A stretch of 64,000 nucleotides of DNA from Sulfurimonas sp. (GTDB lineage: Bacteria > Campylobacterota > Campylobacteria > Campylobacterales > Sulfurimonadaceae). Made by a program: the position numbers and the translations under genes. How positions within the stretch are numbered: the stretch's first letter is position 1; each line of letters begins with the position of its first letter. The DNA lies in NCBI RefSeq assembly GCF_028713515.1, contig NZ_JAQTOD010000001.1:124001-188000 (forward strand), read 5' to 3'. This document shows, in pieces, positions 42,503 through 47,248 of this stretch. The notes below the pieces were generated by a model. That model saw only the letters and a program-made list of their open reading frames with translations, ran no database searches and was not told the origin of the DNA.

Positions 42503-43099
42503 TCATTTCTCATAGATTTCATCATAAGAAAAATATGAGTCGTGCAATCCTCTCTCAATCATCTCCTTCGCAGATGAATATACTTTTTTATACAGCTCAT
42601 GTTGATTGTCATGATTCTTTTTCATTTTAGCGTATCCATAGTATGTAACAGCAAGTATAAGAGCATAAAGAGAGTAAACCAAAAAAGTGTGAGTTGTGTA
42701 TAGTTCCGTAAAAAGCGCTATAAGATTGTGAGCAGTGAAGAGAACCATTACTCCAAGACTTCCGATCCAGATGGAGTAGGCACTGTTTTTTGAGTCAACT
42801 TCAAAATTTTCAAGATTTCTTAGTATCTGTACTTTTTCATTTATATCTTTTTTAAACTCTTTTGTCTCGCTGCTGTCTTCGTTTTTGATGATTAGTTTTT
42901 TTACTTGAACGCTTGATAGCTCACTGTGTCTGTTGATCTCTTTGTACTCTTGAATAAACGATGGATCTTCTTTTAGTAGAGCCATAATCATATCAATGCT
43001 GATATTTTTAGTTGAGAGTCTCTCTCTCATCTCAAAAAGTAGAGTGTTGTAGAGTCCATCATATAAAATCTGTTCTGATGTTTTTTTAATATTTACCAT
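42503..43099 (-). CDS. Two-pass membrane protein downstream of NOR, unknown
   Basis: This 198-residue protein has a soluble, charged N-terminal half (residues 1-105, helical, with SSVQVKKLIIKNEDSSETKEF), two membrane helices (about 108-130 and 137-155) and a charged, Tyr-rich C-terminus. No family recognised. AGGAG precedes the ATG. It lies downstream of the two NOR genes on the same strand, across a 122-base gap filled with inverted repeats, and may belong to the same regulon. Confidence 0.6.
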   Translation of the reverse strand: MVNIKKTSEQILYDGLYNTLLFEMRERLSTKNISIDMIMALLKEDPSFIQEYKEINRHSELSSVQVKKLIIKNEDSSETKEFKKDINEKVQILRNLENFEVDSKNSAYSIWIGSLGVMVLFTAHNLIALFTELYTTHTFLVYSLYALILAVTYYGYAKMKKNHDNQHELYKKVYSSAKEMIERGLHDSYFSYDEIYEK

Positions 43100-43221: not shown

Positions 43222-44859
43222 TTAAGCTTCTGGAATCAAATCTTTTGTTTGTAGTTTTGATTTGCTAAATATGCCAAGAAGACCTTGCAGTCCGATGCTC
43301 ATCAAAACATTTACTAGAAATACAACCCAAGCAGATAGCAGAAGAAGCCCACAAATGCCCGCCAATATCATATAAGTTTGAAACTCTCCATTCATATAGA
43401 GTGTTCGTCTAAGAGCGCCGTCCATTGCAGCCATTCCCATAAATGCACCCATTCCGATTCCACCGATTAGATGTGCCCAGAAGTGGTAATTTGCTAGTTT
43501 TTGACTATAAAGTTTTACCTCGTTTGTAAGTGTTGGCCATAGTATATAGATGGCACTATATAGCGTCATAGTAAGTCCAACCAAAATCGCCACATGAAAG
43601 TGAGGACCTGCTACCCATTGAGTGTTGTGTAATATTCTGTTAAGTCCCATATCTGCTTGAATAATTCCAGCAGGAACAGCCAGCATAAAGCCTAAAATAC
43701 CAGCTAAGAGGAACTTTAACTCGTTTGTCATCTTAAGAGGTCTAGCGCTCCAAAGAGTAACTAAAGTGATAAAAATTGCAATCCCTTGAGTTACAAGTTC
43801 AAATGCAGTTACCATTTCTCCACTTACAAGTTTCATCATGTTGTATTGACCTTGATCAGCCAATAGGTGATGTGACCAAACAGCCCATGAAACAATCAGC
43901 TCAAGCAAAAGCGCAGCTCTTGCGATATTTTGCATAAAAAGCTTTTTGCCAGTGATGAGCATTGCTAAAAGATACCAAGAACCTGCTATATAAATAAGCA
44001 CTAAACCATCAGCAATAAGGTCAAGTCCCCACCAGAAAAAGTTTTTGTATAAAAGAGCATTTACTGCTGAATAGCTCATAGAAACACCAGATAAATCACC
44101 AACGATGTAAACTAAAATCAAAATTCCACAAGTCAAAATAACAAGCGCATCTAAGAAAGTATCAATCGTTCCTCGAAAGATAGCAACAACAGGAAGTGCA
44201 ACTGCCGGCTCTTTTGCGTATGGCTCTCTGCCTGTTAATTTGTAAAGAATGTTTAGCATACCGTCAATACCGAGTGCCGAAATAAGCAGAGGTTTAATTG
44301 CTCTTTTTTCATGTCCATCTTCAGTATAAAAAACTGTTGCAAATATGTTGTAGATAAAACCTAAAGTTCCAAGCATAATAAGTGCAATACCACTTATAAA
44401 AACAAGTCCGCCAACTGCATCAAACTGTTTAAAGTCCACAGGCAATGGCCAATAAAGCGTATATAGCGGAGCATAGTGAAACAAGAATCCACCAAGCCAA
44501 GATGAAAGTGTACCAACAGCAATTAGTATCCAAGTAGCATTTGCAAGCTTGATGCTATAGAGTGGTTTTTTCATTAAATAAGGCACAAGAAACGTAAATG
44601 CTCCAAAAACAATCAAATATGTTGAGCCAAATATTCCAACAATCGGATGAACCGTTAGTACGGAAAAATAATGCGCATCGTCTAGCATAGGAAGAGGTGA
44701 GATTGCATGAGCTCTCATCATCATCCCCTCCAGTGCAGATAAACCGTAGTATAAAACTCCAATAATTACAGCTCTAAGAGTTACTTTTTGGGTCGGTGTT
44801 AAGCCATCAGTTTTGAGTCCGCCTTCGTGTCCATGTATTAAAGTTTTTAAAAAGCTCAT
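43222..44859 (-). CDS. Heme-copper-superfamily nitric oxide reductase, catalytic subunit, with Asp at the FeB histidine position
   Basis: This 545-residue protein has about 13-14 membrane helices. Visible ligand candidates are H71 (TVHPIVG, low-spin haem), H330/H331 (VWSHHLLADQ), and H420/H422 (VAGPHFHVAI, the two haems of helix 10). The helix that carries the remaining metal ligand reads WWGLDLIADG: by alignment with cNOR WVVHLWVEG, the histidine becomes D280 and the FeB glutamate becomes D284. No cross-linked Tyr motif of oxygen reductases is present. NO reduction is therefore the likely reaction. It overlaps the subunit II gene by 4 bases. Confidence 0.85.
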   Translation of the reverse strand: MSFLKTLIHGHEGGLKTDGLTPTQKVTLRAVIIGVLYYGLSALEGMMMRAHAISPLPMLDDAHYFSVLTVHPIVGIFGSTYLIVFGAFTFLVPYLMKKPLYSIKLANATWILIAVGTLSSWLGGFLFHYAPLYTLYWPLPVDFKQFDAVGGLVFISGIALIMLGTLGFIYNIFATVFYTEDGHEKRAIKPLLISALGIDGMLNILYKLTGREPYAKEPAVALPVVAIFRGTIDTFLDALVILTCGILILVYIVGDLSGVSMSYSAVNALLYKNFFWWGLDLIADGLVLIYIAGSWYLLAMLITGKKLFMQNIARAALLLELIVSWAVWSHHLLADQGQYNMMKLVSGEMVTAFELVTQGIAIFITLVTLWSARPLKMTNELKFLLAGILGFMLAVPAGIIQADMGLNRILHNTQWVAGPHFHVAILVGLTMTLYSAIYILWPTLTNEVKLYSQKLANYHFWAHLIGGIGMGAFMGMAAMDGALRRTLYMNGEFQTYMILAGICGLLLLSAWVVFLVNVLMSIGLQGLLGIFSKSKLQTKDLIPEA

Positions 44860-45449
44860 TTAACTTCCCCTTTTTGTGAATGTTTGTCATCTTCGCTGCA
44901 TCCTGATACTTCAAAAACATCTTTGACAAACATATGTGCACCTTTTGGTCCGGAGTATTCAGTAGATCTTAGGTCATAAACGCCGTTTTTACCAAATTTC
45001 CACATAAGGTCGTTTTTGCTTCCTGGAACAACTTGCATCTGTGTTACCATTGAGCTGTTTTGTCTAAAGATACCAAAGCCGTAGGTTAGGTCGTTTGAGA
45101 CAACATTAAAAAGTACAAATTCATTACATTTTATATCTATTTTTGGGCTAGGTAATATAAATTTATGATCCTCGATTGTTACATTAACAACTTGCGCGGG
45201 AGTGATTGAGCTTCTTTTAAAGTCAATCTCAACCCATGGAATTTTGTTAAATGTTAAGATGTGAATAGCCACACCGACGGTAATTAATGCTCCTACATAA
45301 CCATAAAATATGGATGATTTTACTATGTTGGGTTTTCCTTCTGGATTTACAACTCCAAGTGAAAACCAACCAATAAGCGAAATAACGGCTAAAGTATATA
45401 GGGTATAAACAAGCTTTAGCATGTTTAACACATCAACTGAATCTGTCAT
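44856..45449 (-). CDS. Cupredoxin-like subunit II of the NOR, lacking CuA cysteines
   Basis: This 197-residue protein has two N-terminal membrane helices (about residues 12-32 and 46-65) and a periplasmic cupredoxin domain (about 85-182). The CuA region of oxidase subunit II normally reads CSExCGxxH; here it is STEYSGPKGAHM, with S162 and S166 replacing both cysteines, and the upstream CuA histidine position reads DLTYGF. H172 and M173 remain. It therefore probably cannot hold CuA, and electrons must enter the catalytic subunit another way. AAGGAG lies before the ATG. Confidence 0.85.
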   Translation of the reverse strand: MTDSVDVLNMLKLVYTLYTLAVISLIGWFSLGVVNPEGKPNIVKSSIFYGYVGALITVGVAIHILTFNKIPWVEIDFKRSSITPAQVVNVTIEDHKFILPSPKIDIKCNEFVLFNVVSNDLTYGFGIFRQNSSMVTQMQVVPGSKNDLMWKFGKNGVYDLRSTEYSGPKGAHMFVKDVFEVSGCSEDDKHSQKGEVK

Positions 45450-45628: not shown

Positions 45629-47248
45629 TTATTTTGAATTTATCCAGATAAGCAGGGCTATATTTATGATTGTCATGGTTATGAAAGAGAGTTTGTAGAA
45701 GAAAACTTCATGCTGTTTGATAAGAGAGATATTTTTTGAAAAATAGGGTACCACTTTTTGAGGATTTTTTAATTCATAAGCCATCTCAGAGTAGTGTGCA
45801 TATCTCTGCTCTTTGTCAAGTGCGATTGAGCGCAAGATGATGCTATCTAACCAGTGCGGTATGTTTTGATTGTAGAAACTTGGCTTTTTTGCCTCTTTAA
45901 ATGAAGGTGTTTGAAAGGGCTCTATCTCTCCATAAGGATACTTTTTAGTAAGAGCATAGTAGAGTGTAATGCCGATAGAGAAAATCTCGCTTGATTCACT
46001 TATTGCCTCATTTAAAAATCTCTCAGGAGATAAAAAACTGGGTGTTCCTGCTTTAGAGTTTGTAGAAAAAATCTCAGTTGTTAAACCAAAATCCACTATC
46101 TTAAATTCCACATTTTGCCCATTTGCTACAAGCATGATGTTGTGAGGTTTTATATCGCCGTGAACAAGATCGTATTTTAAAAGGTAAGTGGACATTTTCA
46201 GTAATACATCACAAAGTTTTAGCGCATCATCTATTCTAAGAGGTTGCTCATGTAGTATTTCGTGAAGATTTTGCCCCTCAATCTTTTGCATGACATAGTA
46301 TCTATGAGTTCTCTTTTTTGGAATAACTGTTTTTGGGAAAAATGGAGCTTTTAATCTTTTTGCATTCCAAGCCTCTTTTATGAAGAGATCTAGTATTTTC
46401 TCATCTTCAAGTGCAACTTCAGGCGCAAATTTTAGTATATATTTTTTTGTTTTTTTGTAAGCTTCCCAAGTGTTCTCATTTAGTGAGACCTCAAGCGTGT
46501 ATCCATCTATGATATTTTTAGCTTGAAGATTTTGTGCGATACTAACTTTTTGCATCTTTAGAGTGTTAAATTCACTCTTTTTTACTATCTCAATAACAAG
46601 GGCTGTCGTGTCATCTGCTAAATTGTCGCTTGTTAAATAACTTGCCTCTTTTACTAAATAGTGAGCTCCAAGATGCAAGTTTTTCTGTATGTACTCATAC
46701 GAGAGAGTATTGTAGAGTCCATCACTGCAAAGAAGTATCTTATCGTTTTGCTCTAAGATATTTTCAAAGTAAAATGGCTCAATACTATCTTGTGCACCAA
46801 TGGCTTGAGTTAGAATGTGGCTTTTTTCTTGCTCTATGTGGTCATAAGATAACTGCTTTAAAACACCGCCTCTGTGAAGATAAACTCTGCTGTCGCCAAC
46901 ATTTGCACCATAAAGTCTATCTCCCTCTATTACAACCAATGCAAGAGTGGTTAGCAGTTCGCTTCTCTCATAATTTTCAATACTCTCTTGATATAAAATT
47001 GTATTTATTGAAGCTATGAAAGTTCGTACAGATTTTTCTATACTCCAAGTTTTAGGGCGTATTTTAAAGTTATTGGATAAGTAGCTCGATACTCTTTGTG
47101 CTGCTCTGCCACCAGCTTCAGCGCTTCCAACGCCATCGCAGATGATGGCGATAGTTGTTTGTGCATTTGAGTTAATGGCGTAAAAATCATCACTAGTTAA
47201 ATCTCTGCCTTTAGCAAGACCAAATGCAGAGTGTTTAATCTCTTGCAT
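45629..47248 (-). CDS. PP2C phosphatase / Ser-Thr protein kinase fusion
   Basis: This 539-residue protein has an N-terminal PP2C phosphatase domain (about residues 1-235; ICDGVGSAEAGGRAAQ, GANVGDSRVYLHRGG, LLCSDGLYN and DNLADDTTALV with the metal-binding Asp residues). A Hanks-type kinase follows (about 255-500; ATP-binding Lys in KKYILKFA, VHGDIKPHNIML, KIVDFGLT, GTPSFLSPERF). A single C-terminal membrane helix (about 518-537) anchors it. Both enzymes look complete. It overlaps narK (TAATG), so it is made together with the nitrate transporter and may act on it. Confidence 0.92.
   Translation of the reverse strand: MQEIKHSAFGLAKGRDLTSDDFYAINSNAQTTIAIICDGVGSAEAGGRAAQRVSSYLSNNFKIRPKTWSIEKSVRTFIASINTILYQESIENYERSELLTTLALVVIEGDRLYGANVGDSRVYLHRGGVLKQLSYDHIEQEKSHILTQAIGAQDSIEPFYFENILEQNDKILLCSDGLYNTLSYEYIQKNLHLGAHYLVKEASYLTSDNLADDTTALVIEIVKKSEFNTLKMQKVSIAQNLQAKNIIDGYTLEVSLNENTWEAYKKTKKYILKFAPEVALEDEKILDLFIKEAWNAKRLKAPFFPKTVIPKKRTHRYYVMQKIEGQNLHEILHEQPLRIDDALKLCDVLLKMSTYLLKYDLVHGDIKPHNIMLVANGQNVEFKIVDFGLTTEIFSTNSKAGTPSFLSPERFLNEAISESSEIFSIGITLYYALTKKYPYGEIEPFQTPSFKEAKKPSFYNQNIPHWLDSIILRSIALDKEQRYAHYSEMAYELKNPQKVVPYFSKNISLIKQHEVFFYKLSFITMTIINIALLIWINSK

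Follow-up and report, generated by a model that had tools for sequence, protein, structure and literature searches.

The gNOR family is reportedly tied to the work of Hemp and Gennis (2008), Sievert et al. (2008), and Murali et al. (2024), the last of which, a PNAS paper to which PMC11388526 and PMC12569097 refer, is said to discuss the gNOR active site. To our knowledge, no gNOR has undergone laboratory testing.

It was from phylogenomics that gNOR was “proposed” as a relative of the B-family oxidases, and sNOR, eNOR, bNOR, and nNOR are likewise proposed or shown to be NORs related to these oxidases (PMC11388526). The family is listed with D as its active-site residue in Sulfurimonas, Sulfurovum, and Persephonella (PMC8756737, Table A4), the residue at the same place being, by published description, N in sNOR, Q in eNOR, and N in CuA-NOR, and a cupredoxin second subunit has been attributed to sNOR, gNOR, and eNOR (PMC8756737). 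Reference sets or profiles for gNOR are already in use (PMC12569097, PMC11707229). Regarding its energetics, gNOR has no proton channel according to PMC8756737, whereas PMC6349771 predicts that it conserves energy via proton translocation. In the literature that we searched, which did not extend to the 2024 PNAS article of Murali et al., no text was found on a His-to-Asp change in gNOR or on the third gene described below.

The cNOR enzyme (NorCB) shares with gNOR the superfamily fold, the metal-site helix, and the HH pair, but it has a three-His FeB, a Glu within the HLWVE motif, and the heme c partner NorC; in gNOR, the motif is DLIAD and the partner subunit is a cupredoxin. In qNOR, a likely quinol donor is shared with gNOR, together with a site made of His plus carboxylate (PMC10256718); by description, qNOR differs in being a single fused chain with a three-His FeB plus Glu and with other quinol-site residues (PMC10256718), whereas two genes and a metal-site helix free of His are found here. 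The E. coli cytochrome bo3 also has a CuA-less cupredoxin subunit II, and its D75 and H98 resemble E44 and H63 of gNOR, but it is an oxygen reductase with a three-His CuB and Tyr288.

A gNOR locus in Sulfurimonas

The window, meaning the whole stretch of 64,000 nucleotides of Sulfurimonas DNA analysed here, comes from a near-complete assembly of 2.0 Mb, and two of its genes very probably encode gNOR, a predicted membrane NO reductase (Table 1). The minus-strand gene row runs from subunit II through subunit I to orf3, with a 4-base overlap between the two subunit genes and a gap of 122 bases between subunit I and orf3. Upstream of gNOR, the minus strand also carries a gene for a fused PP2C phosphatase/protein kinase and one for a NarK-type transporter, and beyond the transporter come plus-strand molybdopterin oxidoreductase and sulfite/nitrite reductase-like genes. 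Relatives of the PP2C/kinase and NarK-type genes recur around gNOR in about 16–20 loci, together with the molybdopterin oxidoreductase and the sulfite/nitrite reductase-like gene.

Table 1. Coordinates of the gNOR genes and associated features (positions in the window, unless a contig is given)
Feature	Position	Strand	Description
gNOR subunit I gene	43222..44859	(-)	545 aa, heme-copper superfamily, Pfam COX1 E 4.8e-48
gNOR subunit II gene	44856..45449	(-)	197 aa, two N-terminal helices + cupredoxin domain
orf3	42503..43099	(-)	198 aa, conserved gNOR-linked membrane protein, no recognised family
Fused PP2C phosphatase/protein kinase gene	45629-47248	(-)	adjoins NarK-type transporter gene
cNOR (NorCB) of the same genome	G000:C2:372789-374102		

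The preliminary description of this DNA had placed the pair in a NOR family outside cNOR and qNOR with altered ligands and a CuA-less cupredoxin partner, and this placement stands, except that the family already carries the name gNOR. A search of named genomes returned homologues, 64–92% identical, from Sulfurimonas, Sulfurovum, Nitratiruptor, Nitratifractor, Persephonella, other Aquificota, and some Bacteroidota, the nearest named ones being from Sulfurimonas, and those of Sulfurimonas, Sulfurovum, and Persephonella fall in one clade. These taxa agree with those published for gNOR and its active-site D, and the locus is therefore a member of the named family, this assignment being founded on the published residue, subunit type, and taxa. 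By description, the published gNOR shares with the present enzyme the active-site Asp at the Tyr/Glu position (D284, in 84/84 homologues), the cupredoxin second subunit (here with overlapping genes and a cupredoxin model), and the genera, and no difference was found. Within its family, this gNOR is ordinary, the Asp metal site and the loss of CuA being family-wide. With its long outgroup branches, the tree does not fix the place of gNOR within the superfamily. The gNOR genes of Bacteroidota genomes (L050, L051, L066, L070, L072, and L074) group beside one Campylobacterota subclade, and horizontal transfer is suggested by this grouping.

The metal site of subunit I and the CuA site of subunit II

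Translation reproduced what had been read earlier from the letters, namely the metal-site helix WWGLDLIADG with D280 and D284 and the intact H330/H331 and H420/H422 in subunit I, as well as S162 and S166 (STEYSG) in place of the CuA cysteines in subunit II. In subunit I, H71 is also intact, and the heme ligands by homology are H71, H420, and H422. An alignment of 84 homologues showed D280, D284, H71, H330, H331, H420, and H422 to be invariant, and all 84 have the metal-site helix motif WWG[LF]DL[VI]ADG[LM] in common.

The claim that D280 occupies the position of a metal-site His was borne out by an ungapped alignment to the Thermus ba3 oxidase, in which D280 lies opposite a CuB His and D284 is the counterpart of the ba3 oxidase Tyr. 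In profile alignments, B-type and cbb3-type oxidases likewise have the CuB His opposite D280; the B-type comparators (Geobacillus, Halarchaeum, and Caballeronia sequences) came from a plasmid search for sNOR/eNOR comparators that returned only oxidase-like sequences, 22–30% identical and not classified. Frames from Halorussus and Azospirillum were left out because they proved to be in the wrong reading frame. The companion claim, which put D284 at the FeB Glu position, agrees with an ungapped count in which D284 pairs with the Glu in WVIHLWVEA, the corresponding stretch of the cNOR encoded in this genome. In alignments to A-type oxidases, the register slips by about one residue via a gap near G278, and this slip brings no His to the metal site. 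A profile comparison with cNOR alone, with 3 rows only on the cNOR side, gave an uninformative probability of 2.5%.

A different His serving the metal site, which the preliminary description had named as a case against its reading, is ruled out, as no member among the 84 homologues has a His within residues 265–300. Sequencing error, chance, and lineage-specific decay are ruled out as well, since the metal-site positions are conserved family-wide and invariant in all 84. D280 thus placed probably acts as the third ligand of the non-heme metal beside H330 and H331.

The loss of CuA goes further than the two cysteines, given that in the alignment to CuA domains one His is replaced by Y123 and the other by G170, and only E164 and M173 are kept among the CuA residues of subunit II. 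The CuA ligands are missing in 84/84 partner subunits: one Cys is Ser (Thr in two subunits), the other Cys is Ser or Ala, and the two His are Tyr and Gly. Every partner retains the CuA Glu, and 83 retain the Met. Subunit II also carries an invariant patch formed by Y123, R129, M138, W150, E164, and Y165.

The model of subunit I (pLDDT 79, pTM 0.84) superimposes on heme-copper oxidases with an rmsd of about 3 Å over about 450 residues and Z values of 31–34 (Foldseek, VIA-align), as in the matches to cNOR 4xyd_A (Z 32.1; 424 residues at an rmsd of 3.1) and cytochrome bo3 8qqk_A (Z 33.2; 458 residues at an rmsd of 2.9). These structural matches are near-tied, and the fold therefore cannot tell the families apart. 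At the metal-site segments, around 261–290, 331–350, and 401–420, the pLDDT falls to about 44–61 in a model built without cofactors, and we rejected this AlphaFold model as proof of the metal pocket because of the low confidence in those segments. The model of subunit II (pLDDT 90) combines a cupredoxin domain with two helices; its cupredoxin matches reach Z values of about 10, and CuA domains and bo3 subunit II are found among its best structural matches.

Electron entry and the third gene

The preliminary description had called the electron entry route unknown; a quinol site is suggested here. E44, R49, H63, and Y64 of subunit I align with D75, R80, H98, and Y99 of E. coli CyoB, and the ubiquinone site of bo3 comprises D75 and H98 in a cluster R71-D75-H98 with residue 101 (PMC10256718). 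E44 is present in 84/84 homologues and H63 in 79/84, with Q in the other 5, whereas bo3 R71 corresponds to L40 and Q101 to S66 or A in gNOR, so that 2/4 of the bo3 quinol residues are matched. The aligned cytochrome c oxidases are without the equivalents of both E44 and H63. Direct oxidation of quinol is our best guess because CuA is lost, the cupredoxin fold is kept, and E44/H63 match D75/H98 of bo3; judging from these two residues, quinol is most likely the electron donor of gNOR.

It is somewhat unlikely, by our estimate, that the low-spin heme of gNOR instead takes electrons straight from a soluble periplasmic protein, either a cytochrome c or a copper protein, the CuA-less cupredoxin domain serving only as a docking surface. 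The cupredoxin fold of subunit II, close to that of CuA domains and bearing the invariant patch, would suit such docking, and a few loci (7 for cluster 10) have small cytochrome c genes in the vicinity of gNOR, but the operon has no conserved cytochrome gene, subunit II has no metal ligand set, and E44/H63 have the look of a quinol site.

The third gene, orf3, which the preliminary description had missed, accompanies the two subunit genes in most loci. Among the 79 loci whose downstream sequence is 900 bases or longer, a homologue of orf3 follows subunit I directly on the shared strand in 71 and overlaps subunit I in 1 more. The seven orf3-less loci, of which four are Campylobacterota rows and three are Bacteroidota rows, together make up one side of a single branch with a support of 100, and because they share this branch side, a single loss or gain of orf3 suffices. 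In the class set of 298 genomes, all at least 90% complete and 32 of them with gNOR, orf3 was found in 28 genomes, all within the 32 having gNOR, and in 0/266 of the others. No convincing match to orf3 was obtained in Pfam, NCBIfam, or the PDB. A simple hydropathy scan gave a hydrophobic stretch at 110–133, and Y52, N87, and E97 are invariant in 38 sequences. We propose that orf3 may be either a subunit of gNOR or a factor in its assembly, specific to gNOR in both cases. In 35 loci including L084, but not in the window, orf3 is followed by another gene for a small membrane protein (about 167 aa, weak YcxB match).

Tentatively, and with considerable doubt about all its parts holding together, we put forward that gNOR oxidises quinol, holds its metal on two His and one Asp, and possesses in orf3 a dedicated third component exclusive to gNOR. 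Going by sequence, the candidate novelties could be orf3 and the residue-level quinol proposal. The invariant Asp in place of the metal-site His, the loss of CuA, and the gNOR-only third gene offer concrete residues and a gene for testing.

Predicted NO reduction and the link to nitrite reductase

The same genome encodes an ordinary cNOR directly beside nirS, with the CxxCH heme site in NorC and HLWVE in NorB, as well as a cbb3 oxidase, and a search confined to clade II NosZ found none. A gene for a 110-residue membrane protein (L095 416-748, G000 contig C2) lies immediately ahead of norC, norB, and nirS.

The gene for cd1 NirS was found in 12/12 gNOR genomes vs. 16/31 overall (Fisher p 1.6e-5; own genome and relatives), and in the class set in 28/32 gNOR genomes vs. 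46/298 overall (p 5e-23), these p values ignoring shared descent among genomes that are not independent and so overstating the link. It is missing from 4/32 gNOR genomes of the class, and no strong cd1 NirS was found in the four Bacteroidota gNOR genomes searched (L050, L070, L072, and L074). The linkage with cd1 NirS is supporting evidence for a putative role of gNOR in NO removal.

An oxygen reductase, or some other oxidase of the superfamily, in place of an NO reductase is very improbable. Automatic models do call subunit I a cytochrome c oxidase subunit I, far under the cut-off (77.9 of 670.75 bits), in line with its Pfam COX1 match, but the catalytic Tyr of the oxygen reductases is missing at both places where it is known to occur (residue 284 is Asp, and residue 334, a Tyr in cbb3, is A, G, or S here), D280 replaces a His of the three-His CuB, and the linkage to cd1 nitrite reductase is tight. 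The NirS linkage and the loss of the Tyr at both positions therefore favour NO over O2 as the predicted substrate of gNOR. Standard annotation mistakes gNOR, as it does several other proposed NO reductases, for a cytochrome c oxidase, and consequently N2O-producing capacity may go unnoticed in sulfur-oxidising Campylobacterota.

In the mechanism that we propose for gNOR as an NO reductase, subunit I would carry two hemes, one low-spin and one high-spin, as well as a non-heme metal, iron or copper, on H330, H331, and probably D280, with D284 near the metal presumably taking the role of the NOR glutamate. Two NO would be converted to N2O at the pair formed by the high-spin heme and the non-heme metal, and the electrons may come, as a less firm part of the proposal, from membrane quinol beside the low-spin heme, near E44, R49, and H63. 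An enzyme of two, perhaps three, subunits would thus act alongside cNOR, clearing the NO from cd1 nitrite reductase.

Since this genome also encodes a complete cNOR, the two enzymes may share their tasks in more than one way, and a protective function has been suggested for the Methylomirabilis NO reductases, including gNOR (PMC6094997). Another nitrogen-oxide role for gNOR, either NO dismutation or service as a protective sink for NO that yields no energy, is quite unlikely, as no sequence feature points to dismutation and a protective sink would still be NO reduction.

Elsewhere in the genome (L097 703-2244, G000 contig C5), a gene situated after an ABC transporter ATPase gene encodes a membrane protein of 513 residues that matches COX1 weakly (E 5.4e-6); an HAH motif is present in it, and no HH pair stands in the usual place. 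Weak COX1 matches like this one also occur in a few related genomes.
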